Notes: generated by a model from the sequence alone, not told the origin. DNA of 63,313 bases from an uncultured Chlorobiaceae bacterium (GCA_903869365.1 CAIPYV010000134.1:1-63313), one strand, 5' to 3'; shown: positions 2,288 through 31,499, counted from the first letter of the stretch. Translations and numbers: made by a program.

Positions 2288-3649
2288 ATGAGGAAAATAA
2301 CATTCGCATCTATCGCAACACTTTGTATGGTACCAATTTTGTCCTGGAGTTCTGAGAGCCAGGCCATACCTTCATGGGGAAGAAAGTACCAGACATCCTG
2401 TCTGATGTGTCACTCTGGTATGCCACAGCGGAATGCTGTTGGTGAAGCTTTCAAGAACAACGGTTATCGCATGCCTTCCGGTGTTGAAGAGGCGTTTACA
2501 AGGCAACAACAGGTCAAGATCGGAAATGAGGAATGGAAAAAAACTCTCGGAGCTCCTGTAGAAAGTTCATACCCCTCGTTTGATCCATTAAGCCTTGCTT
2601 TCAGCGGCAACCTTATTAGCTACAAATCACCGACCCACACCTCTACCGGTGCACTCTCGGCAAAAAAAGAGCTTACATACAACGCTCCTAATGTCGCATC
2701 GCTTTTTTTTGGCGGTTCAGTAGGTGAACATCTCACATTTTTCGGTGAAATCAATGGATTCGGTGGTGCCGCTGTGGAAACCGATAAGGACGTAACTTCC
2801 ACCTCTACAGTTGATACTCCGGTCTCTTCTAATGTCAGGGCGGTCTGGCAATTTTCTCCAGGTCTCAATCTGGCGCTCGGCAACAGCTTCAGCAATGTTA
2901 CCTGGAATGGGGTAGGCGTCGGTGGAGTTGTAAACGTATCGGGTGTGCTTCCTGCTCCTGTAACGTATGCAGAAGTGAACTTCACACGAGGCGACACAGC
3001 AGGGTACTCCCTTACTGCAGGTACCAGCATGGCAGCGAAAACCACAACACCTATTGTGGCAACATCAAATACCATTGATGATCTTCTCTATCTCCGTGGA
3101 AAATTTAAACTGTTTGGTGCAGGTCTGCTCACTGGTGCCAATGGAGACCTTGGTAATCCATATACCGGTCTTGACAACCAGGTAACCATAGGGGCCGGAC
3201 TCTCTTACGCTAAGAATTATATTTCCGGTGTAGCAGATCCGAAAACTCAAATAATTCCAACAATTGGTTTTGTAGGAAATTATACAGGAGAGTCTTTGGT
3301 TTACGGTGCAGATATCCAGGGAGTCTACAAAGACTTTCAGATCGGTGTAGCTGCAAGCCATGATCGTGATCTGCAACTCAATAACTTCAAGATAGAAGCA
3401 GGATACTTTATGTACTCCTGGCTTTTTGCAAAAGTTGCTTACTCAGACATCGCAAATGCAAATGTCATAAAATCAAGTTCCTATGATGTGCATCAGCCCA
3501 CCATTGCTCCAGCACTTTCCGCGTGGTTGTCCCCAGCCGTGTCACTTACAGGGATCTACACCTATTTTACCAAAGAGAGGACTGCCAACGCAATAACCGG
3601 CGTTACCAATCAGAACACTTTTGCTTTAGCTGTAAGAGCAAGTTTCTAA
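2288..3649 (+). CDS. Cyc2-like fused monoheme cytochrome-porin (outer membrane)
   Basis: A 453-residue protein. It starts with a signal peptide (about residues 1-25, ending SESQA). A single heme motif CLMCH (Cys38, Cys41, His42) sits in the pattern A-I-P-S-W-GRKYQTSCLMCH...GEAFKNNGY. The remaining ~400 residues alternate polar and hydrophobic positions with many Gly/Thr/Ser and end in an aromatic (RASF), as in an outer-membrane beta-barrel. This is the architecture of Cyc2, the fused cytochrome-porin that takes electrons from Fe(II) at the cell surface; the heme-proximal pattern (AxPxFAR...CxxCH...FGxxFKxxGY) is recognisably similar. The start at 2288 is chosen over one at 2240 because it gives a standard signal peptide and a GGAG site. 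Substrate (Fe(II) or other) is inference. A terminator follows at 3701. Confidence 0.7.
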   Translation: MRKITFASIATLCMVPILSWSSESQAIPSWGRKYQTSCLMCHSGMPQRNAVGEAFKNNGYRMPSGVEEAFTRQQQVKIGNEEWKKTLGAPVESSYPSFDPLSLAFSGNLISYKSPTHTSTGALSAKKELTYNAPNVASLFFGGSVGEHLTFFGEINGFGGAAVETDKDVTSTSTVDTPVSSNVRAVWQFSPGLNLALGNSFSNVTWNGVGVGGVVNVSGVLPAPVTYAEVNFTRGDTAGYSLTAGTSMAAKTTTPIVATSNTIDDLLYLRGKFKLFGAGLLTGANGDLGNPYTGLDNQVTIGAGLSYAKNYISGVADPKTQIIPTIGFVGNYTGESLVYGADIQGVYKDFQIGVAASHDRDLQLNNFKIEAGYFMYSWLFAKVAYSDIANANVIKSSSYDVHQPTIAPALSAWLSPAVSLTGIYTYFTKERTANAITGVTNQNTFALAVRASF

Positions 3650-3700
3650 ACAGAGATTAACCTCTCTCCTCAAAAAAAGTACCATAGCTATGCGTCTAAA

Positions 3701-3736
3701 GAAAGGCATGATTGTATATATATAATCATGCCTTTC
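3701..3736 (+). terminator. Hairpin downstream of the cytochrome-porin gene
   Basis: Perfect 13-bp inverted repeat GAAAGGCATGATT / AATCATGCCTTTC with a 10-nt AT-rich loop, 51 bp after the stop. It may serve as a terminator from the plus strand; the run of T after it is interrupted. Confidence 0.6.
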
Positions 3737-3756
3737 TACTTTCTTTCTTCATACTT

Positions 3757-4318
3757 TCACTTGAATAATATCGCTCCACCGTGTGCTATACCGAGGCGAT
3801 AACCGTTCCTGATGCGGCTTCCAGCTCTCCGAGTTCTCCGCCGCCAGCCGCACCGCTCACTTGCCTGCAAATGTCGCCACTGCCTGCTGCAGTTCCTCTT
3901 GTTTAGTAACGCTGCGACCAAATGATCGTGAAGTGCAGATACTTTGCTTCGCAGGCCGAACCAGCTCCATCGGCAGGCAGGATTTGCCCTGCAGCACTTT
4001 GCTCCACTGCTGCCCGATGCCCCAGATATCCTCAACCTTGGTGTGTTTCAGCGCAGCCTGTATTTCGTCGGTGCTGCGGAGCACGCAGACGCCTTGATAG
4101 TGCGGGTTCTTTTTGGCCAGCCGGTTGGCAATTTTGGCAAGCGTTTTGGTTGGCGCCATGCCGACGCAAACGGGAATGCCGGTATGCAGGCGGACCGTCT
4201 TGCGCCTTTGCCTGGCATAGTCTGGCAGGTCGAAGCGGCTGAAGCTCGACATATCGAGAAATGCTTCGTCGATGGAATAGACTTCGATCTCTGGAGCAAG
4301 TGCGGCAAGGGTTGACAC
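3757..4318 (-). pseudogene. umuC: umuC (DNA polymerase V catalytic subunit) remnant
   Basis: On the minus strand from 4318 one reads the palm-domain motif YSIDEAFLDM with the catalytic Asp-Glu pair, then the GIPVCVGMAPTKTLAKIANRLAKK segment, then VEDIWGIGQQW, all typical of UmuC. After WSKVLQG the sequence jumps to KSCLPMELVRPAKQSICTSRSFG, losing about 40 residues that normally lie between them. The N-terminal part of the polymerase is absent, and the frame is lost around 3857, where family-like sequence continues only in pieces. The gene is dead. It is the first of a run of broken genes to about 10.1 kb. Confidence 0.8.
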
Positions 4319-4470
4319 TTACCGTACCCGTTCACACGAGGCATAGAAAATATACAATCTGAAGAGGAGAAGGGAAGTTGGTTAAAAAAGTGGCTGCCAT
4401 TCCAGATACCTCTTCGTCGTTCTATATTAGTTGTCTCCAGGAACTGAAGTGAAATCAATCTGAGGAGGCA

Positions 4471-4896
4471 ATGATGGATCATGAAATGATGAATACCTTC
4501 AGTGACAAGCCAATGCTTTCGGCAGATTATGCTGCGCTGCTGGCTTCGGTGAAAGCGCGAGTTCTCGCTGCCCAGTATGAAGCTTTCAAAGCGGTGAACA
4601 AAGAGCTGGTTGTGCTCTATTGGGATATTGGACGGATGATTGTAGAACGGCAGGCGAATGCTGAACATGGTTCAGCTATAGCCGAACAGTTGGCATCCGA
4701 TCTCCATGCTGAGTTTCCGGGAATCAAAGGGTTTTCACGACGCAATGTGTTCTACATGCGGGAATTTTATTTACTCTATTGCGGTGATGAGCGAGTGCAA
4801 CTACTGGTTGCACAAATCGGCTGGACTCATAATCTGATTATTCTTCAGCACTGTATTATGCGTATATTTCGAAAAACAGATAAATTCAACGAATAA
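4471..4896 (+). pseudogene. DUF1016 (YhcG-type) nuclease, N-terminal fragment
   Basis: The first ~115 residues match the DUF1016 N-terminal domain: LYWDIGRMIVERQ, a LASDLHAEFPGIKGFSRRNVFYMREFY block and the start of the VAQIGWTHNLIILQ segment. The C-terminal PD-(D/E)XK nuclease domain of this family is missing: after LQHC the sequence becomes unrelated and stops at 4896. A ribosome binding site (GAGGAGG... before 4471) remains. Truncated remnant; intact homologues occur next to restriction systems. Confidence 0.7.
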
Positions 4897-21631: not shown

Positions 21632-21898
21632 ATGTCTATTGAACAGGTAAAGGCGTTTATGCAGGATGTCCTTGAAAATCCCTGTATGAAGGATGATGTC
21701 GTGAAGTGCAGCACAATCGAAGAACGGTTGACGTTTGCAACGTCAAATGGGTATGGTGTTACAATCGATGACTTCAGGGAAGTGGCAGCAACCTTCAACT
21801 CCGGTTTTAAGAAGTGTGAGACTCCCGATTCAGGGGGGCGTTTACTCTGGAACGAAAGCAGTTGTTATCAATATCATCCTGCTCCTAAGATGGTTTGA
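21632..21898 (+). CDS. Nif11-type leader peptide (RiPP precursor candidate)
   Basis: An 88-residue peptide whose N-terminal half fits the Nif11-like leader family: MSIEQVKAFMQDVLENP, then a T-x-EERLTFATSNGYGVTIDDFREVA block. Nif11 leaders recruit maturases that modify a C-terminal core. The tail (about 53-88) is polar and aromatic with Cys62, Cys78, two Tyr, a Trp and prolines, and a Gly-Gly at 68-69 that could mark a leader-cleavage site, leaving a 19-residue core containing Cys78. Whether cleavage occurs there is inference. The gene has a strong ribosome binding site and lies upstream of a membrane protein, a radical SAM/SPASM enzyme and a patatin on the same strand. One precursor only is seen. 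Confidence 0.75.
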   Translation: MSIEQVKAFMQDVLENPCMKDDVVKCSTIEERLTFATSNGYGVTIDDFREVAATFNSGFKKCETPDSGGRLLWNESSCYQYHPAPKMV

Positions 21899-22020
21899 AT
21901 GAATAGCTATTTTATTGCTCCGTCAATAGTAGTCAGGTTGAGTCGGTGTTGCCGGAGCAAGAGGTTACTGTTTCAGATGAGTCGAATACGTTGAGTTCAA
22001 AGTTATCCTTTGGGAGATCT

Positions 22021-22836
22021 ATGGGCGAAAAGGTAGAACAGCAGAAAAGCATTAAAGCTTTACATGCAGGAGGAAAAGACGATTTAGGAAACACTATTAT
22101 CCAAGTTCTGGCTTCGGGAAGTGAATTTGCTATTTATGAAATTGATCATCCGGATATTAGTGAAAGGTTGCGAGTGACTATCGATGGCCGTACCGATGAA
22201 CGCGAACATGAACTGGCTGAAAGATATAATAAGGTAAACCAGAAATATCTCGAGGCAATTGGGCTTCTTTACAGGTCTGCGAATCTTGGAGTGATGAAAA
22301 CTCGCGTGGCACATGTACTCGCGACTGTTCTCTCATCCGATAAAGATGATGGAAATAGGGAGTTTGATGAGCTTATCCACAAAATAAACGACGAGTATCA
22401 GCAGGTCACCGTCAACCGCATATTTTATTTGCTGCCGACATTGCTCTCAACCGCAATGATCTCTTTCGAAGCTTTTTACCTGGCTTGGTCGGATCAGCGC
22501 GGTGCTCCTTTATGGCCTGTGACCTGCGTGTTGCTGGGTTCGTGCTTAGGCGGTTCGCTTTCAATATTTTCAGGATTAAAAAAATTCAAGTTCGAAGAGT
22601 ATTCAAAATCGGCGTTGTATTTGATGTTCGGCATGGAACGAGTTTTGCTTGCATGTATTGCGGGTGTTGTCGCTTATGCGCTTGTCCATAGTGACATTAT
22701 CAATCTCAACAAATTATCTCTCAAGAATGAGTGGAATGTAATTATCGTTTCTATCGTTGCTGGCTTTTCTGAATCCTTAATACCGAGTGTCATTGAAAAG
22801 ATATCAAAGAATATAACCGAGAAAAAGCCTGAGTGA
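22021..22836 (+). CDS. Membrane protein with four C-terminal TM segments, unknown family
   Basis: Start chosen at 22021 because GGGAGA lies 6 nt upstream; an in-frame GTG at 21946 has no such site. The product is 271 residues: a charged cytoplasmic N-terminal half followed by hydrophobic segments around FYLLPTLLSTAMISFEAFYLAW, WPVTCVLLGSCLGGSLSIF, VLLACIAGVVAYALVHS and VIIVSIVAGFSESLIPSVI. The last segment, with AGFSE near its end, resembles a motif of bacterial membrane proteins of unknown role. The stop overlaps the GTG of the radical SAM gene, so the two are translationally coupled. It might anchor or export the modified peptide, but it has no ATPase or peptidase domain. Confidence 0.7.
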   Translation: MGEKVEQQKSIKALHAGGKDDLGNTIIQVLASGSEFAIYEIDHPDISERLRVTIDGRTDEREHELAERYNKVNQKYLEAIGLLYRSANLGVMKTRVAHVLATVLSSDKDDGNREFDELIHKINDEYQQVTVNRIFYLLPTLLSTAMISFEAFYLAWSDQRGAPLWPVTCVLLGSCLGGSLSIFSGLKKFKFEEYSKSALYLMFGMERVLLACIAGVVAYALVHSDIINLNKLSLKNEWNVIIVSIVAGFSESLIPSVIEKISKNITEKKPE

Positions 22837-24269
22837 TCTCTTTGCTTGAACACGTCATGAAATCATGGTCAATTTACAATAGGCCGTTTTATGCTGAGCG
22901 TTATGGCTATTTTCTCTACAACGCTTTATCTGGCCGGCTTCTTCAATATGACGAACCGCATTCTCGCCTGATTGAGTCTATCAGGAGTGGAGGAGGGTAT
23001 TCCGGCTATGAGGATGATCAGGATTTCATGGAAACGCTGGATCAAAACGGGTTTATTCTCGATAAACGGGATGAAGTTCGAATGCTGATGCGGAAACGGG
23101 AGATGCGCGATCAGAAGTGTGCTGACGCATCTCAACTGGTTCTCTGCATCTGTCCGACTCTTCAATGCAACTTTCGATGCGCCTACTGCTATGAACTCAG
23201 CCAGAGTGACAGCACCGTCATGAGTCTGGAGACAATTGGCAGACTCATCGATTTCATCAAAAGGCATGAGGCGTGCCGCAAACTTTCCATTACTTGGTAT
23301 GGCGGCGAGCCGACCATGGCGTTCGAGGTTGTCGAAACCCTTACGGAACGGTTTCTTGATCTCTTTCCAAACTATGATTGTGCGTCGCTTGTCACCAATG
23401 CCTACCTTCTTGATCGAGAAAAAACTGAAAAGCTGAACCGGCTTAAAATTACCAATGTGCAAGTGACGCTGGATGGGCCGGCTTCTACACATGACAGACG
23501 AAGGCCTTTGAAAAGCGGCGCATCAACCTATAGGAGGATTATTGAAAATCTCGATATACTGATGAATTCATCTTATAACGGTTCCTGCTCTATCAGGGTT
23601 AATATTGACAGGAGCAATCGAACAGCATTCTCTGGCCTTCGTTCTGAACTTCTCGACCGTTATAAAAATAAACCTCTCACGGTATATCCATATCGACTTA
23701 GCACGACACACTGCAGGGCTGATGCCGAGATAGGGGAGATGGGGAGGGATGAGTGGGCTGATTTTATTGTTCGTGGGTATCATGAAAACGATATTGTGCC
23801 AGAAAGAGGGTTTTACCCGGACAGCCAAGCTTTGAACACCTGTATGGCCAGCATGGATCACGGTTACGTGGTTGCCCCTAATGGCGAATTGTATAAATGC
23901 TGGAAAGATGTTGGCCGGAAAAGTATGATCGCAGGCTCTGTTTTCAGCAGCAAACCGGATGAGCGCAACGGAATAGCTTCAAGTTATCGAACGGTGGGCG
24001 ATCCTTTCCTGAATTCCGAATGTTTGGAATGTCGGGTTTTTCCGATCTGTGGCGGCGGATGTGTAAAAAAGCGCCTTGAGGCGCAGCAAGATGCTGACTC
24101 GGGTATCGACTTCTGCTCCCCCTATAAGGAGTCCCTCGAGGTTTATCTTGCAGCCTCTATTGACATCTATCACAAAAGGGAGATCTGCGATATCATTTTT
24201 GGACGTACTGATTGGCTGACGATGGATAAAGGCTATCGTCTTATTGACCCTTATCATGTCTTCAAATAA
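22833..24269 (+). CDS. Radical SAM/SPASM peptide maturase
   Basis: A 478-residue enzyme (GTG start overlapping the previous stop; an ATG at 22857 is also possible). The radical SAM cluster motif is CNFRCAYC (Cys112, Cys116, Cys119). WYGGEPTMAFE is the GGE-type SAM-binding motif and VQVTLDGPASTHDRRR is typical of peptide-modifying members. The C-terminal SPASM domain has many Cys (CMAS, YKCWKD, ECLECRVFPICGGGCVKKR, DFCSPYK) to hold auxiliary [4Fe-4S] clusters. Such enzymes install thioether or C-C crosslinks, epimerise, or excise residues in ribosomal peptides. The upstream Nif11-type peptide is the obvious substrate candidate. The particular modification cannot be read from the sequence. Confidence 0.92.
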   Translation: MISLLEHVMKSWSIYNRPFYAERYGYFLYNALSGRLLQYDEPHSRLIESIRSGGGYSGYEDDQDFMETLDQNGFILDKRDEVRMLMRKREMRDQKCADASQLVLCICPTLQCNFRCAYCYELSQSDSTVMSLETIGRLIDFIKRHEACRKLSITWYGGEPTMAFEVVETLTERFLDLFPNYDCASLVTNAYLLDREKTEKLNRLKITNVQVTLDGPASTHDRRRPLKSGASTYRRIIENLDILMNSSYNGSCSIRVNIDRSNRTAFSGLRSELLDRYKNKPLTVYPYRLSTTHCRADAEIGEMGRDEWADFIVRGYHENDIVPERGFYPDSQALNTCMASMDHGYVVAPNGELYKCWKDVGRKSMIAGSVFSSKPDERNGIASSYRTVGDPFLNSECLECRVFPICGGGCVKKRLEAQQDADSGIDFCSPYKESLEVYLAASIDIYHKREICDIIFGRTDWLTMDKGYRLIDPYHVFK

Positions 24270-24282
24270 ACAAGGGGGGAGA

Positions 24283-25917
24283 ATGACAAAGAAATTAGCA
24301 ATCACAGTCTCGGGTGCGGTTTCGCTTGGGAGTTTTGAGGCTGGAGTTATGTATGAGATCATCCGAGCTATTGGCGAGCATAACAGCGCCCTGCCAGAAA
24401 ATGATCCTAATCGCATTGAAATTGATGTCCTAACGGGCGCGTCAGCTGGCGGTATGACTGCTACCATTTGTGCCCAGAAATTGATGTTTGAGGCCAGTTC
24501 GCTGGAGGGTGCCTATTCCAACTCTCTCTTTGCGCCATGGGTGGCCAAGGTAAATATTATGGATTTGCTTCAGGAGCGTCCTGGAGACAGTAGGAGTAAA
24601 TCAATTCTTTCATCGCAGTTTGTTGAAGAAATCTCAAGAAACTACATTACGGCACGTTATGCGAGTCACCTTGATCCTGTTCGGTTAAAGCATGCGGCAT
24701 CGGCTAACAAGATATGGCTTGGACTGGCTCTTGCCAATCTGAATGGTGTGGACTACAGCCATCCGATCCTTCCGAATGGAAAGTTCATTTATACCCGTTT
24801 TCAGGATGAATTGATTGCCGAGATTGATAACATTTCGACAGACGATACGCTTGAATATTGGGAGGCGTTAAGAAATGCGGCTGTTTCGTGCGGTGCTTTT
24901 CCTTTTGCGTTTAAGCCCGTAACAGTTTTACGCAGCCCCCGTGAATACCTTTTTCCAAAACCAGAGACACCGATACTTGAGTCTGAAGCGTTTTGCTATA
25001 CTGACGGAGGTACGTTCCAGAATGAGCCGTTAGGGTTAGCCAAGACGCTCGTTGACAAGTTGGACCCAGGGCATATAGATACCGCTGATCGTTATTATCT
25101 GTTTGTTTCCCCGGGTGAAAAAAAATCTGTTGCTTCAACCGATTTCACTGCGGAAAAGGCGGATTTTATTCCATTTACGATGCAACTGATATCGGCTATC
25201 TTCAATCAAGGTCGATTCCAGGATTGGGTTATGGCGGATAAAGTAAATGCTCAGATTGATCTGTTGAACTCGCGGGCGAAGGGGCTTGCAGTGATGCTAA
25301 CGGGGGATTCACCTGATGCAAAGCAACTTACAAAAACGCTTAACGATGGAACAAAAAATCTGTTGGCTGCGCTTTTCGGCACAAGTGATGGCAGTCAGAA
25401 TGAGATCAATAAAAATCGTACACGCCTCAGAATCCTGTTTGCTGAAGAACTCTCATCACTTTCAGCCAATGCCAAGGAGGCACTGATTGATTCAATCCTG
25501 ACCCTGGAAAAGGCGGCTAACCTTGCTGACAAGGATGAAATGAAAATCCTTGGCATTACTGCTAAGGATACAGAGCTTGCAAGTTCGGACATGTTTGCTT
25601 TTGCTGGCTTCTTTGATTTGAGATATCGTAAACATGATTATGATGTAGGTCGCAAAAAGGCTCAGGTTTTCTTGAAAGACTCTGCATGTCCACTGGGGAA
25701 ACTCAATTTCACGCCTGAGACAGTTGACCCCATTGACGAAAGTCTGAACAATATGAAGTTGGAGGGAATGCCAGAGAAAATTCGTGAAGAAATTTGTGAC
25801 CGATTTGGGGATCGCATTAAAGATACTCTCCAAAAAGCGGGCTTGAACACCGCAGTACGTTTTGCCGTTTACAATTTTGTTATAAAACCAAAGCTGCGCA
25901 AGTTTTTGAAACTATAG
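24283..25917 (+). CDS. Patatin-like phospholipase in the RiPP-like operon
   Basis: Start set at 24283, where GGGGGGAGA lies just upstream; the product is about 544 residues. Patatin hallmarks: an oxyanion-loop-like GAVSLGSFEAGVMYE near the N-terminus, nucleophile Ser54 in GASAGG, and the Asp241 of the DGG dyad motif in YTDGGTFQNEP. These form the Ser-Asp dyad of lipid acyl hydrolases. About 300 further residues follow without a recognised domain. The gene starts 13 bp after the radical SAM stop, so it is in the same operon. A lipase here might act on a lipidated or membrane-targeted peptide, or be an effector; both are speculation. Patatins also serve as membrane-destroying effectors in some phage-defence systems. 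Confidence 0.88.
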   Translation: MTKKLAITVSGAVSLGSFEAGVMYEIIRAIGEHNSALPENDPNRIEIDVLTGASAGGMTATICAQKLMFEASSLEGAYSNSLFAPWVAKVNIMDLLQERPGDSRSKSILSSQFVEEISRNYITARYASHLDPVRLKHAASANKIWLGLALANLNGVDYSHPILPNGKFIYTRFQDELIAEIDNISTDDTLEYWEALRNAAVSCGAFPFAFKPVTVLRSPREYLFPKPETPILESEAFCYTDGGTFQNEPLGLAKTLVDKLDPGHIDTADRYYLFVSPGEKKSVASTDFTAEKADFIPFTMQLISAIFNQGRFQDWVMADKVNAQIDLLNSRAKGLAVMLTGDSPDAKQLTKTLNDGTKNLLAALFGTSDGSQNEINKNRTRLRILFAEELSSLSANAKEALIDSILTLEKAANLADKDEMKILGITAKDTELASSDMFAFAGFFDLRYRKHDYDVGRKKAQVFLKDSACPLGKLNFTPETVDPIDESLNNMKLEGMPEKIREEICDRFGDRIKDTLQKAGLNTAVRFAVYNFVIKPKLRKFLKL

Positions 25918-26091: not shown

Positions 26092-26340
26092 TTAATTTAC
26101 AGTGATGTAATCCTTCTCTTTTGTCGCATCCTCAATTACCGGCAGTCCAAAAAAAAATTCCGCATCATCAACATTTTTCGGTGCAACCACTTTATTTTTA
26201 AAATCATCCCTTATCCTCGCCATGAGTTCAGGATGAACAGTTACGGATGCGGGATTTTTGACGGTACGGAATCCATAAAAAATTGCCGCTATAACCTTTT
26301 CACGTAAAAAATCGCAGCCTACATCATACTTCTTTTCCAT
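26092..26340 (-). CDS. Hypothetical protein, 82 aa
   Basis: The ATG at 26340 is preceded by GGGAGG at ideal distance. The product MEKKYDVGCDFLREKVIAAIFYGFRTVKNPASVTVHPELMARIRDDFKN...DDAEFFFGLPVIED has no domain I can name. It is divergent from the DGR target gene at 26493 with about 150 bp between starts. A real gene on the strength of its ribosome binding site. Confidence 0.6.
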   Translation of the reverse strand: MEKKYDVGCDFLREKVIAAIFYGFRTVKNPASVTVHPELMARIRDDFKNKVVAPKNVDDAEFFFGLPVIEDATKEKDYITVN

Positions 26341-26492
26341 TTTCCTCCCTGTTTTCGTTTCAGAAATATACCATAATGGCATTTCCGTGACCAAATTATA
26401 TGGGTGTTGATTGTTGGAGCAATATACTTTTAAATTGGTTTTGAAAGATGCATTATCGGGCTGATATTGCATTATCGGGAGTGCGCCTCATC

Positions 26493-28274
26493 ATGATTAA
26501 ACAGAACATCATGCCGGACTCGATACTTAAAAGAAAACGTGCAAGAATCACTGACCGAAATAGATGGCCTCGCTGCTGGTGGTATCCTGTGCCAGAAGAA
26601 GATAAACGTCACTTGGATGTTGTCGGGCAACTGCATGAGAGTTACGCAAAAACGATCAATAAAACGATGTTTGCGCTTCTCGGTGTCGGGTTCTATTGTT
26701 TGCTCAAGGTTATTGGGGAGTCCGATAAATCGCTTATTGTTGCGAACACAACCATTCAAACGCCGGTGGGTGGCACCTCCATCTCCTTTCAGAGCTTTCT
26801 TTGGGTTGCTCCTTTTCTGCTTGTTATCCTGGCCGTCTATCTTCACATTGTTTACGGACACTGGCTGAAACTGGAAAGAAGACGGGAGTTTCTTAACGAT
26901 AAATCGGAGAAATTCGGTGACGCAACAATCGAGAGCATTCCTGCTCTTTTCAGCTTTAAAGAGCGTCTACCACGCTTTTTCACCAATCTCGTTTTTTACT
27001 GGTTCGTGCCGCTGACCTTGTGGATTATGGCGTATAAGGCTTTTGCCCTCAAGGAGTCCATTCTTTGGTTTTCTGGTTTTGCCTCCATTGTCACCATCTT
27101 ACTGCTTTTTCTGCAGATCAATCGTTGTCCTGATTCCAAATCAGAATCTACATCAAGATCAAGATGGTTGTGTTGGATTTTGTCCAGATGGGGAGCCTTC
27201 GGCCGGCTTGTTGCTTTTATAGTCAATGTTCCTTCAAAACGGTGGTTTTGGAATTTGCCCCGATGGGTAGTCTCAGGAGTGTTCGTTGCCTTCATGGTCA
27301 ACCTTCCATCTGTTTCTAAATCATTCCGTCGTCCACTCAATCTTCCGCGGGAAGATCTTAAGGGAGCCTGGCTGCAAGGCCTTGATATGGAAGGTGCAGA
27401 CATGAACAACGTCAATCTTCAGGGTGCGAACCTTGCTGGAGCAAATCTTCGGAACGTCAATCTTCAAAATGCCAGCCTTCAGGGTGCGAACCTCAAGAGG
27501 GCTCATTTACAAAATGCACACCTTAACGCTGCAAATCTCCAGGGAACAAATATTGGCGGAGCTAATTTTGATGGCGCAGATCTTTTTTCTGCCGATTTCA
27601 GGGAGGCAAAAGAGATGGAGCTTTATCGGATTCAAAAAGCCGCGAATTGGAATCGAGCCTATTATACTATTAATTTATTTTCACTTCTTAAACTTTCTCG
27701 AACTCACAATGATGACCTTGAAAAAATCGGCACTTATTTTCAAGGGGGGAAAATCGCTTATATACTCCAACCAGGTGATACCGGTTACGTTGATGGAGAG
27801 CAGCATGGCCTGATTGCCGCCGAAGAAGACATAAAAACTATATACACTGACGCTTGGGACAAAGTGTCTGTTACAGGATACTACCGCTGGAGTACCGGCC
27901 AATACGAAAATGAGAACAAAAGCGATTATGCCTCTCAGGCGTTGTTCAACACCAGCATACAGGTCGGTGATGGCAAAGACAATACAGATAAAATACTCGC
28001 AAAATATCCTGCCGCAGCTTTTCCTAACAGTGCAGCAGCAGTTGCAAGAGCATATCGTGGTGGTGGCTATGATGACTGGTTTTTGCCAAGCCAGAGTGAG
28101 CTTAACCAACTCTATCTTAACAGAAGTGCTGTTGGCGGTTTTGTGGACTACAGCTACTGGAGTTCTTCGGAGTTCAATGCATTCCTCGCATGGTTACAGA
28201 GTTTCGGTAACGGGGACCAGTACTACTTCATCCAGTACTTCAAGGGGCGGGTTCGTCCTGTCCGGGCTTTTTAA
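26493..28274 (+). CDS. DGR target protein: membrane segments, pentapeptide repeats and variable DUF1566/C-type-lectin-like domain
   Basis: Start taken at 26493 (GGGAG 11 nt upstream); an earlier in-frame ATG at 26448 is possible. The 593-residue product has four hydrophobic segments in the first ~215 residues (FALLGVGFYCLLKVIG, FLWVAPFLLVILAVYLHIVYG, FFTNLVFYWFVPLTLWIMAY, ILWFSGFASIVTILLLFL), then about 17 pentapeptide-repeat units of A(D/N)LxX type (LQGANLAGANLRNVNLQNASLQGANL...), then a DUF1566/Lcl-type domain with GGYDDWFLPSQSELNQLY. The last 49 codons are the variable repeat (28125-28271). In known DGRs this C-type-lectin-like fold displays diversified residues for ligand binding. Membrane anchoring suggests a receptor attached to the cell envelope; the ligand is unknown. 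Avd, template repeat and RT follow downstream. Confidence 0.93.
   Translation: MIKQNIMPDSILKRKRARITDRNRWPRCWWYPVPEEDKRHLDVVGQLHESYAKTINKTMFALLGVGFYCLLKVIGESDKSLIVANTTIQTPVGGTSISFQSFLWVAPFLLVILAVYLHIVYGHWLKLERRREFLNDKSEKFGDATIESIPALFSFKERLPRFFTNLVFYWFVPLTLWIMAYKAFALKESILWFSGFASIVTILLLFLQINRCPDSKSESTSRSRWLCWILSRWGAFGRLVAFIVNVPSKRWFWNLPRWVVSGVFVAFMVNLPSVSKSFRRPLNLPREDLKGAWLQGLDMEGADMNNVNLQGANLAGANLRNVNLQNASLQGANLKRAHLQNAHLNAANLQGTNIGGANFDGADLFSADFREAKEMELYRIQKAANWNRAYYTINLFSLLKLSRTHNDDLEKIGTYFQGGKIAYILQPGDTGYVDGEQHGLIAAEEDIKTIYTDAWDKVSVTGYYRWSTGQYENENKSDYASQALFNTSIQVGDGKDNTDKILAKYPAAAFPNSAAAVARAYRGGGYDDWFLPSQSELNQLYLNRSAVGGFVDYSYWSSSEFNAFLAWLQSFGNGDQYYFIQYFKGRVRPVRAF
28125..28271 (+). repeat. 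DGR variable repeat (VR)
   Basis: 147 bp at the 3' end of the target gene, aligning without gaps to 28856-29002. I count 21 positions where the template has A and VR has another base, covering 15 codons, mostly AAC/AAA/AAT codons turned into TTC, TAC, CTC, GAC, AGC, ATC and similar. Two non-adenine differences: 28181 (A; template G) and 28267 (C; template G, beyond the GC-rich end). Unvaried ends: GTTGGCGGTTTTGTGGAC at the 5' end and GGGGCGGGTTCGTCCTGTCC at the 3' end, the latter in the place of the initiation-of-mutagenic-homing sequence. Confidence 0.97.
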
Positions 28275-28308
28275 CTATTTATCTATTCAACAATTAACCT
28301 CTGGGGGT

Positions 28309-28330
28309 ACAGGGGGCTTTTGCCCCCTGT
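28309..28330 (+). other. Hairpin downstream of VR (DGR cruciform element or terminator)
   Basis: Perfect 9-bp stem ACAGGGGGC / GCCCCCTGT with a TTTT loop, 34 bp after the target stop codon. Hairpins of 7-10 bp with 4-nt loops a short distance 3' of VR are known to promote mutagenic homing in studied DGRs. A short T-tract further on also allows a terminator role. Confidence 0.75.
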
Positions 28331-28348
28331 TAAAAATATTTTTATGGT

Positions 28349-28702
28349 ATGGCACTCTATTACGATTTACCGGTCTACCGTGATGTCTACTCCCTGATTC
28401 TTAAAATCTTTGAGTATACCAAGGATTTTCCGCGTGAATACAAGTACACCCTGGGCCAGGATCTCAAGCGTGACAGCCTGGTGTTGGTCAGGAGTATCTA
28501 CAGGGCCAATAAAGCCAAAAGCAAGACGGAGTATCTTGAGCTCTTTCTTGACGATTTTGAAATCCTTAAACTGGAGGTGCGATTATGTGTTGACCTGAAA
28601 ATTCTGCCCATGAAAAAGCAGGCTGAAATTGCAGGGCTCATGGACGGGATTGGGAAACAAATCACCGGATGGCGAAATGCCGGGATGGTGAGAGGTGCCT
28701 GA
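28349..28702 (+). CDS. avd: Avd, DGR accessory variability determinant
   Basis: A 117-residue all-helical protein: LPVYRDVYSLILKIFEYTKDFPREYKYTLGQDLKRDSLVLVRSIYRANKAKSK, then LELFLDDFEILKLEVRLCVDLKILPMKKQAEIAGLMDGIGKQITGWRN. This is the four-helix-bundle family shared by DGR Avd proteins and 23S rRNA intervening-sequence proteins. Avd forms a basic pentamer that binds the DGR RT and template RNA and is needed for cDNA synthesis. Position between VR gene and TR, as in Bordetella phage-type DGRs, supports the assignment. Confidence 0.93.
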   Translation: MALYYDLPVYRDVYSLILKIFEYTKDFPREYKYTLGQDLKRDSLVLVRSIYRANKAKSKTEYLELFLDDFEILKLEVRLCVDLKILPMKKQAEIAGLMDGIGKQITGWRNAGMVRGA

Positions 28703-28855
28703 ATTCTGTTGGTCAAGGCTGACGGAAGCGAGCAAGGCTTTGTTCAAAAGCGGCAAAGAGACTGAGCGCCGAACGAAGAACAACATTGAAGATCGGGGCG
28801 CAGTAAAGGAAAATGCACTGAAAGCGCTTTTAGTGTATGCGAACATCTTTGCGAT

Positions 28856-29002
28856 AGTGCTGTTGGCGGTTTTGTGGACAACAACTACTGGAGTTCTACG
28901 GAGAACAATGCGAACAACGCATGGAAACAGAATTTCGGTAACGGGAACCAGAACTACAACAACAAGAACAACAAGGGGCGGGTTCGTCCTGTCCGGGGTT
29001 TT
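28856..29002 (+). ncRNA. DGR template repeat (TR), part of the template RNA
   Basis: 147 bp with 88% or lower identity to VR, all but two differences at template adenines. Read in the VR frame it is dominated by Asn codons (VDNNYWSSTENNANNAW...), the typical adenine-rich template. It lies 153 bp after avd and 48 bp before the RT gene. The RNA around it serves as template for adenine-mutagenised cDNA. Reading frames through this region (for example from 28695) should not be called genes. Confidence 0.97.
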
Positions 29003-29018
29003 GAACAAGCAAGTGTAT

Positions 29019-29044
29019 CGCCCGGATGAGAACTTCTCCGGGCG
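29019..29044 (+). other. Hairpin between TR and the RT start codon
   Basis: 8-bp stem CGCCCGGA / TCCGGGCG with a 10-nt loop, ending 6 nt before the RT ATG. It could be structure at the 3' end of the template RNA, or limit RT translation by hiding its ribosome binding site. Confidence 0.6.
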
Positions 29045-29050
29045 TTATAC

Positions 29051-30268
29051 ATGACAAAACCTTCGCCATTGCAATTTGAACTTTTTCCACCAGAACCGAT
29101 CTCTCTTGCTGAGCTTTTTGAGGCTTACGAAAACTGTCGTCGCCACAAACGAAAGACGCAGAATGCTATGGCTTTTGAACTTGATTACGAGCACAATCTG
29201 GTTGATCTCTGTGAGGAAATCAATAATGGCAGCTATCAGCCTGGGAACTCTATTGCCTTTATTGTCGACAAGCCGGTTAAACGGGAAATATTTGCTGCTG
29301 ACTTTCGTGACCGTGTGGTGCACCATCTCATTATCAATAAACTCAACGAATTGTTTGAAAAAGAGTTTATCGCCGACAGCTACTCTTGCCGCAAAGGGAA
29401 AGGAACGCATAAAGGCATTGAGCGCCTTGACCGGTTTATCCGACAATGCTCACGAAACTACAGCCGTGACTGCTGGATTTTAAAGATTGATATCAAGGGA
29501 TTTTTCATGAGTATCGATCGTAAGCGCCTTTACCATCAACTGGAGCTGTTTGTTAGAGCGAACTACCATCTTCCTGATCGCCCGTTTCTTCTTGAGCTAT
29601 GCCGCAAGGTTATTTTTTACGATCCGGCAGCCAATTGCATTATCAAAGGGAGACGTGCAAACTGGAAAGGCTTACCGGACGATAAAAGCCTTTTTCACTC
29701 CCGTCCGGGGTGCGGTTTGCCGATTGGCAACCTGACCAGCCAAGTTTTTGCCAACTTCTACCTCAATATCTTTGACCATTTCATGAAACACACACTCGGG
29801 TTGCGATATTATGGTCGCTACGTTGATGATATGGTCGCTGTTCATCGAAATAAGGCATTTTTGAACTCTTTGCTGCCGATCATCCGAGTTTATCTGCAAC
29901 GGGAACTGGGATTAACGCTTCACCCGCATAAAATTTTCCTTGAGCATTACTCGCAAGGGGTCAACTACCTCGGCGTTATCATCAAGCCAAGGAGAATCTA
30001 TGTCGTAAATCGCACCAAAGGCAACTTTTACAGCGCTCTGTTGACGTATAACAGTATAGCGCAAAGGCACAAACCTTATCATGAAGAACGAGCCGCTTTC
30101 CAGAGCCACATCAACTCTTACCTTGGTTTGATGAAGCATTACCATACCTATACCCTGCGCCGATCCATGCTGCGCAAGCACCTCTCTCCATTGTGGTTAA
30201 GACTGGTAAAGCCAAATGCGCGTATTGACAAATTCACTTTCATCAACAGGCAACGGAGGAGGTATTAG
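29051..30268 (+). CDS. DGR reverse transcriptase
   Basis: A 405-residue retron/group II-like RT. Catalytic motif YVDD at residues 257-260 (RYYGRYVDDMVAV). The DGR-specific motif 4 is GLPIGNLTSQVFANFYLN (IGNxxSQ), and motif 3 has DIKGFFMSIDR with the first catalytic Asp. It lacks a maturase (X) or HNH domain, unlike group II intron RTs. DGR RTs copy TR RNA with misincorporation at adenines and the cDNA replaces VR. All partners (VR gene, Avd, TR) are immediately upstream on the same strand and intact, so the system appears functional. Confidence 0.96.
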   Translation: MTKPSPLQFELFPPEPISLAELFEAYENCRRHKRKTQNAMAFELDYEHNLVDLCEEINNGSYQPGNSIAFIVDKPVKREIFAADFRDRVVHHLIINKLNELFEKEFIADSYSCRKGKGTHKGIERLDRFIRQCSRNYSRDCWILKIDIKGFFMSIDRKRLYHQLELFVRANYHLPDRPFLLELCRKVIFYDPAANCIIKGRRANWKGLPDDKSLFHSRPGCGLPIGNLTSQVFANFYLNIFDHFMKHTLGLRYYGRYVDDMVAVHRNKAFLNSLLPIIRVYLQRELGLTLHPHKIFLEHYSQGVNYLGVIIKPRRIYVVNRTKGNFYSALLTYNSIAQRHKPYHEERAAFQSHINSYLGLMKHYHTYTLRRSMLRKHLSPLWLRLVKPNARIDKFTFINRQRRRY

Positions 30269-30530: not shown

Positions 30531-31499
30531 ATGCCAAGGGGGCCGAGACTTGATGCTCCTGGCGCCTTGCATCATGTGATTATACGTGGAATTGAGCGCG
30601 GAGCTATTGTCAGCGATGATGATGACCGGATAGAGGTTGTGCGTCGTATGGGAAAGCTGGCGAAGGATTCCGGTACATCCGTCTATGCATACGCGCTGAT
30701 GACCAATCATCTGCATATTCTGCTCAAAAGCGGAAAGGGCGGACTTGCAACCTACATGCGCCGTCTGCTTTCAGGTTATGCTCAGTATTTCAACCGCCGC
30801 CATAACAGATCCGGCTATCTCTTTCAGAACCGGTACAAGTCGATTATCTGTGAAGAGGAAGCATATTTCTACAAGCTTATCGCTTATATCCATCTAAATC
30901 CTTTTAAAGCCGGTATTGTCGGCTCTATTGACGAGCTTGCACGATATCCCTGGTGTAGTCATTCTGTGCTGATGAAGCGTATCGTACATGACTGGCTCGA
31001 TCGAGATTATGTACTGCAGTTTTTCGGGAGAACGGAGGGGAAGGCGAGAAAAGCATACCTTGCGTTTCTTGAAGAAGAGATTGGCATTGATCGTGAGTCG
31101 GAACTCTCGGGAGGCGGGTTGGTCCGTTCCCATGGTGGTTGGTCGAATGTCCAGTCTATGCGACAACAAGGGCTGAAGGAATTGGGAGATGAAAGGATTC
31201 TCGGCAGTGGGGACTTTGTCAAATCGCTGCTCGCAGAGGCTGAACGGGATGTCGAACAGCAGATCAGTGCAGGGGAAAGGCTGGAATTAGTGCAACAGGA
31301 TATTACTGCTGTTTGCAAGAACGCCGGAGTCAGTGTAGCATTTTTTCGTTCAGGAAGCCGAAGTGGATCGTTGTCGGCATTGAGAAAGAGTCTTGCTCAA
31401 AAATTTGTTCAAGAGTATGGATTGTCTTTTGCAGAGTCTGCAAGGCAGCTGGGGGTGACGACCAGTGCTGTGAGTTCTATGGTGAGAAAAGGGGGATAA
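30531..31499 (+). CDS. RAYT (REP-associated tyrosine transposase, Y1/HUH family)
   Basis: A 322-residue single-strand transposase of IS200/Y1 type. HUH motif NHLHIL; the PRLDAPGALHHVIIRGIERG opening and the YFNRRHNRSGYLFQNRYKSI...AYIHLNPFKAGIV block are typical of RAYTs. The C-terminal region has an added helix-turn-helix-like segment (YGLSFAESARQLGVTTSAVSSMVRK), which distinguishes this subtype from plain IS200. A promoter candidate TTGACG-17 nt-TTGATA lies at 30448-30476. Twelve bp after the stop is copy 3 of the 23-bp repeat, and pieces resembling the 3' end of this gene precede other copies (36472, 43140). That links the gene to the repeat family. It is a single-copy full-length gene in this window, as is usual for RAYTs. 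Confidence 0.9.
   Translation: MPRGPRLDAPGALHHVIIRGIERGAIVSDDDDRIEVVRRMGKLAKDSGTSVYAYALMTNHLHILLKSGKGGLATYMRRLLSGYAQYFNRRHNRSGYLFQNRYKSIICEEEAYFYKLIAYIHLNPFKAGIVGSIDELARYPWCSHSVLMKRIVHDWLDRDYVLQFFGRTEGKARKAYLAFLEEEIGIDRESELSGGGLVRSHGGWSNVQSMRQQGLKELGDERILGSGDFVKSLLAEAERDVEQQISAGERLELVQQDITAVCKNAGVSVAFFRSGSRSGSLSALRKSLAQKFVQEYGLSFAESARQLGVTTSAVSSMVRKGG

Follow-up and report, generated by a model that had tools for sequence, protein, structure and literature searches.

The diversity-generating retroelement (DGR) of Bordetella phage BPP-1 requires a hairpin after its variable repeat (VR), and the loops of such hairpins in phage DGRs have the consensus GRNA (PMC3240598). DGRs with several VRs are known from Chlorobium phaeobacteroides DSM 266 and Pelodictyon phaeoclathratiforme BU-1, as listed in Table 2 of PMC3521204. 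DUF1566 is reported to be the commonest Pfam domain of DGR targets (PMC6642488), and pentapeptide repeats, which figure below, are wound at four per coil (PMC8145042). Targets of the conflict type have been published (PMC10907252, PMC7159879, PMC7517822), as have targets that are membrane-bound or that carry TIR or STAND-NTPase modules (PMC8144416, PMC10907252, PMC7517822), so the original prediction overstated the contrast in calling the target described here unusual on the ground that most known DGRs act on phage tails or lipoproteins.

The DGR machinery considered in this study is of a known kind, and the unusual part is the pairing of targets: a TM-pentapeptide protein together with, in sibling genomes, a TIR protein. 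In a full-text search of openly available papers for DGRs with pentapeptide repeats, the paper of most relevance treats pentapeptides as scaffolds in the effector position and not as DGR targets; the present target may have been listed earlier in subscription papers or supplements.

The cassette and its surroundings

The window, by which I mean the whole stretch of 63,313 nucleotides analysed, comes from a genome of 2.93 Mb in 136 contigs. Positions 26493-30268 hold a target gene with VR, avd, a template repeat (TR) and rt, all on the plus strand and in the canonical DGR order, just as had been predicted. The features are as follows.

26493..28274, plus strand: DGR target gene, an ORF whose multi-TM product has 16 pentapeptide repeats and an Lcl/DUF1566 C-type-lectin-like domain (Pfam Pentapeptide 7e-29, Lcl_C 1.8e-7)
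26664-26720, 26796-26852, 26976-27032 and 27057-27113, plus strand: four clear TM segments (Kyte-Doolittle scan)
27168..27317, plus strand: weak fifth hydrophobic segment preceding the repeats, tandemly duplicated in the window protein
27366..27605, plus strand: 16 pentapeptide repeats (Pfam PF00805; AF2 pLDDT about 63-81 over residues 310-380)
27720..28271, plus strand: Lcl_C/DUF1566 C-type-lectin-like domain (AF2 pLDDT 91.3)
28125..28271, plus strand: VR, aligned to TR without gaps, with IMH at its 3' end (GGGC where TR has GGGG)
28309..28330, plus strand: hairpin or cruciform element ACAGGGGGC-TTTT-GCCCCCTGT, 37 nt past VR, in the same position after first- and second-target VRs
28349..28702, plus strand: avd, accessory protein (bAvd 5e-19; PHROG 'Avd protein of DGR' 2e-22)
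28856..29002, plus strand: TR, with 45 A among 147 nt and 14 AAC/AAT codons
29020..29043, plus strand: inverted repeat GCCCGGA...TCCGGGC between TR and rt, from an alignment of ten intergenic regions
29051..30268, plus strand: rt, DGR reverse transcriptase (RT) of 405 aa with IGNLTSQ and YVDD (RVT_1 1e-20)

The ORFs of target, avd and rt are unbroken and the catalytic motifs are in place; the target's start at 26493 is backed by alignment with two orthologues (L015/L016). Avd scores above the cut-off of bAvd; its match to NCBIfam DivGenRetAVD (2e-17) falls under that model's cut-off. The RT carries motifs of the DGR type, IGNLTSQ fitting (I/L/V)GxxxSQ and YVDD fitting YxDD, and its best solved match is 8ub7, 'Reverse transcriptase' (E 3e-31); its assignment to the DGR class is made from these motifs, RVT_1 and the 8ub7 match rather than from a dedicated DGR-RT model or an RT tree. 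The features that mark the locus as a DGR are the RT motifs, the A-specific relation of TR and VR, Avd, a gene for a ligand-binding, C-type-lectin-like fold that carries VR at its 3' end, and IMH with a hairpin after VR.

In first and second targets across the genus, a GC-rich hairpin lies about 25-37 nt downstream of VR, its stem conserved and its loop variable, as judged partly by reading the sequences; the copy in L046 is imperfect. No hairpin was found downstream of the TRs in the same loci. A role as rho-independent terminator was set aside, since no run of T follows directly and the hairpin recurs behind second targets. The inverted repeat between TR and rt, largely conserved in the genus (ten intergenic regions aligned), is a possible candidate for a stem-loop of the TR RNA.

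About ten further genomes of the genus carry the cassette. Eight others of the same genus have its RT at 81-88%, three more give truncated matches and one further genome a match of 65%; the closest relatives (88%) are MAGs of uncultured Chlorobiaceae. Distant DGR cousins are found at L123 (G101:C27; RT 65%) and L017 (RT 55%), whose targets look secreted and combine Ig-like or collagen-like repeats with the same lectin tip. Searches of phage and plasmid sequences gave one short RT match each, and since these and IMG/VR produced no close relative of the cassette, a phage-borne element is unsupported. I consider it fairly probable, judging homing activity from the sibling comparison below, that the element is a chromosomal DGR, recently active, of a bacterium of the genus Chlorobium.

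Several neighbouring features deserve mention in their own right. A match to the group II intron RNA D1-D4-7 (RF02012, 104 bits) lies at 1108-1251, and no intron RT ORF was seen beside it. On the minus strand, 26092-26341 is a short gene with DNA conservation of about 70-87% across some 45 genomes of the genus; its synteny was followed in three genomes in search of an empty DGR site, and no other window gene lay nearby. Upstream, 21632-25917 may be a RiPP cluster:

21632-21898: Nif11-leader RiPP precursor
21946-22836: membrane-type ORF
22833-24269: radical SAM/SPASM maturase
24244-25917: patatin-like protein

Differences between VR and TR

VR (28125-28271) pairs with TR (28856-29002) along 147 bp with no gap, as predicted. 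The prediction had counted 21 changes, all but one at template adenines; the specificity for adenine stands and the count does not, since 23 of the 147 sites differ: 21 of the differences fall on adenines of TR (16 A>T, 3 A>G, 2 A>C), and the other two are a silent G>A at TR 28912 and, close to the 3' end, a G>C at TR 28998. The chance of at least 21 of 23 mismatches falling on 45 adenines among 147 positions is P = 4.5e-11. Because all intact VR/TR pairs of the genus share the G>C difference, it is attributed to the difference between IMH and IMH* and not to mutagenesis. At the G>A site all nine of the other nine TRs have A, which suggests that the window TR probably changed after the last homing, losing one template adenine. 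Before IMH, VR is equal to the TR of its own genome at every other non-A base.

The comparison was extended to nine sibling loci, read for both repeats. Pooled over 12 intact VR/TR pairs, with the last 6 nt left out, template adenines were changed at 232 of 533 positions, as against 5 of 1162 for the other bases. Each VR has zero to two non-A differences from its cognate TR and is closer to it than to the TR of any other species, with one tie (two identical TRs), as repeated copying of TR into VR would lead one to expect. Between L042 and L048 the second targets match at 97.4% over 500 bp upstream; their VRs agree at 102 of 104 non-A sites and 22 of 43 A sites. For the first targets of L043 and L047 (96% upstream) the corresponding figures are 93 of 98 and 21 of 46. 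Two VRs within one genome agree at non-A sites in 106/106, 103/104 and 99/99 cases (three genomes).

Since VRs match their own TR while near-identical orthologues differ almost only at A, mutagenic homing appears to have been recent in this DGR family, as seen across siblings with one genome per species. The forecast that VR should vary at template-A positions is thereby borne out at the level of orthologues from different species, in loci 96-97% alike around VR. The same three observations (changes confined to A, VR tracking its cognate TR, and the behaviour of close orthologues) give good comparative support, drawn from the siblings, to the description of the DGR as complete and apparently functional.

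Some copies are irregular. The VR of the second target of L041 has one extra codon, and one VR of L044 is short of one base and out of frame. L044 (G023:C16, oriented 2804-4603) has a third copy of the TM-pentapeptide target upstream of its DGR, the adjacent target being the one with the VR frameshift.

The possibility that other DUF1566 paralogues of this genome act as remote VRs was rejected because their mismatches to TR occur at all bases; the differences of L004, for example, fall at A 22, C 11, T 9 and G 8.

Target proteins in the window and in sibling genomes

Pfam, the TM scan, the tip model and the fold match agree in upholding the prediction of a membrane-anchored pentapeptide protein that bears a lectin-like tip. 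The four TM segments of this protein, correctly foreseen, are conserved in orthologues, with the N-terminus and second loop rich in K/R; what had been missed is the weaker fifth segment before the repeats, duplicated here, whose position is that of a strong TM in homologues that lack the tip (L111, L112). The repeats number 16, not about 17, and roughly 12-21 in orthologues. Because four repeats make one coil, 16 make four coils, which at the rise per pentapeptide coil span only about 2 nm, and the proposed function as stalk or spacer is doubtful. The reading of a surface receptor on a stalk is the weaker for this short length and for the fifth segment.

With the K/R-rich N-terminus inside, the tip would be periplasmic if there are five TM segments and cytoplasmic if there are four or six. 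Its sidedness therefore hangs on the fifth segment; a periplasmic tip is slightly favoured. The AF2 model of the whole target (3 sequences) is poor (pLDDT 41) and therefore does not decide the TM topology. No signal peptide or outer-membrane anchor was seen on the target.

The prediction of a diversified DUF1566/lectin-like tip agrees with Pfam Lcl_C, with the AF2 model of the tip (31 sequences, pLDDT 91.3) and with its best solved match, 8q4e, the C-terminal domain of Legionella Lcl (Z 14.7, rmsd 2.0, 118 aligned, 31% identity). The existence of the tip-free homologues indicates that the TM-pentapeptide protein came first and that the tip was added to it by grafting.

Five sibling genomes (L040-L043 and L048) have, downstream of rt, a second gene that likewise terminates in this VR. 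All four second targets run through Pfam begin with TIR_2 (E 3e-23 to 3e-25), and that of L048 is nearly identical to the scanned protein of L042. The proteins of L042 and L048 have a TM segment and a coiled-coil-like stretch between TIR and tip; those of L040, L041 and L043 are without a convincing TM. Several sibling loci have a partial copy of avd after the second target, and VR, hairpin and the start of avd appear to have been duplicated together to give it. At the window cassette the TIR second target is absent, homology to siblings stopping at about the end of RT. The position that it occupies in siblings, directly past RT, is taken in the window by a gene for a REP-associated tyrosine transposase (RAYT; 30531-31499).

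In the five siblings one TR overwrites both a TM-pentapeptide and a TIR-Lcl gene, and this second role of the template is new here. It is tempting, though I regard it as doubtful, to suppose that one template feeds hypervariable lectin tips to two innate-immune-like receptors at once, multi-TM pentapeptide and TIR, with the window's cassette as the single-target version. The layout of the second target in G006 and G028, where TIR is followed by one TM, a coiled coil and the diversified lectin, belongs to the same speculative picture, in which it might resemble a Toll receptor with a hypermutated outer domain.

The same genome contains a second, independent DGR (L058; G000:C36:1-10000, minus strand) with an Avd-like ORF, TR and RT. 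Its target is a 1171-aa metallophosphoesterase-NACHT-FGE-sulfatase protein, and its VR/TR changes within the repeat are at template A. Neither this NACHT-type DGR nor the hairpin behind VR nor the TIR second targets of the siblings had featured in the original prediction.

Function of the target and comparison with known systems

From the anatomy of the DGR and from BPP-1 I infer mutagenic retrohoming. The TR transcript would be copied by RT with Avd, template adenines being miscopied, and the cDNA would replace VR, guided by the 3' IMH and the DNA hairpin just past the target's stop codon. Homing would re-randomise about 15-20 residues on the C-type-lectin tip of the multi-TM pentapeptide protein. 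That protein is most likely a hypervariable sensor coupled to an effector of membrane or TIR type, probably for defence or conflict, and I hold this explanation, taken as a whole, to be somewhat better than an even bet. The putative role is proposed because of the TIR partner in siblings, the genome's NACHT-type second DGR and the published conflict-type targets. Of the modules typical of conflict-system sensors (TIR, NACHT, CHAT or MoxR/vWA), TIR occurs in the second targets of five siblings and NACHT in the genome's other DGR, none at the window cassette, and no PADLOC model matches target or Avd, RT matching only generic or other RT models. Several details speak against the explanation: the window TR is one template A short, the hairpin loop is TTTT, not GRNA, the cassette lacks a TIR second target, and the closest out-group DGRs have apparently secreted targets.

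The same DGR might instead serve adhesion or cell-cell recognition, an outward lectin tip binding surfaces or neighbours with no immune role. DUF1566 and C-type-lectin targets are often adhesive (PMC6642488, PMC8144416), the best fold match of the tip is an adhesin domain, that of Legionella Lcl, and the targets of the cousin DGRs (G101, L017) are apparently secreted and contain Ig-like or collagen-like repeats; since these are the closest out-group targets, adhesion is favoured as the older role. For the present target it is nonetheless rather unlikely, given that no signal peptide or outer-membrane anchor was seen, that multiple TM segments point to the inner membrane, that 16 repeats reach so short a distance, and that the same TR serves TIR proteins in five siblings, three of the five without a convincing TM. 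The grafting of the tip onto a TM-pentapeptide protein, and a TR shared with a TIR protein, make the target most likely a sensor and not a long-stalked adhesin.

Machinery that once worked in the lineage could also have decayed, leaving the window copy inactive and its VR a relic. The lost TR adenine, the lack of a second target and the RAYT transposase behind RT fit such decay, as do, in the relatives L044 and L048-L050, rt or avd copies broken into fragments and a VR with a frameshift. It is made improbable by the intact ORFs with their catalytic motifs, the intact hairpin, and the identity of VR to its own TR at all non-A bases before IMH, one site excepted. I give practically no credence to the idea that this is not a DGR at all and that chance or ordinary paralogy has brought together two DUF1566 fragments: the genome does have other DUF1566 paralogues, but they differ from TR at all bases and VR only at A, avd and rt lie next to it, about ten genomes show the same pattern, and the pooled counts refute the idea.

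As a cellular DGR the element is clean and recently active, it belongs to a tractable phylum, and nine comparable sibling loci form a natural series for measuring homing. A template shared by membrane pentapeptide and TIR proteins makes directly testable the question of what cellular DGRs sense.

The BPP-1 DGR resembles the present one in that changes are specific to A, that Avd, RT and IMH are present and that a GC-rich hairpin follows VR, and differs in diversifying a phage tail rather than a cellular multi-TM protein; its type of hairpin has a GRNA loop 4-34 bp away, whereas the window hairpin has a TTTT loop 37 nt from the end of VR (PMC3240598). The DGRs of DSM 266 and BU-1 likewise belong to green sulfur bacteria and have several VRs; their accessions are not matched to these loci, and the relevant passages of PMC3521204 describe neither target architecture nor a TIR partner. 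Legionella Lcl is an extracellular collagen-like adhesin (PMC11162425) that shares with the tip the fold of its C-terminal domain (8q4e). HglK-type proteins have, like the target, four N-terminal TM segments and then pentapeptide repeats, a likeness of layout, and lack the diversified lectin tip (PMC8145042).

Thiohalocapsa PB-PSB1 and other multicellular bacteria use DGRs to diversify putative antigen sensors, in which a lectin-type VR domain is fused to TIR, NACHT or TM modules (PMC10907252). The genome's second DGR, with its metallophosphoesterase-NACHT-FGE target, is of the conflict-type class described there. The cassette of the window differs in that no MoxR/vWA or STAND module was seen in it, its targets being TM-pentapeptide and, in siblings, TIR proteins. 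The resemblance lies in the arrangement, for those systems too often have two targets per DGR, of mixed predicted localisation.
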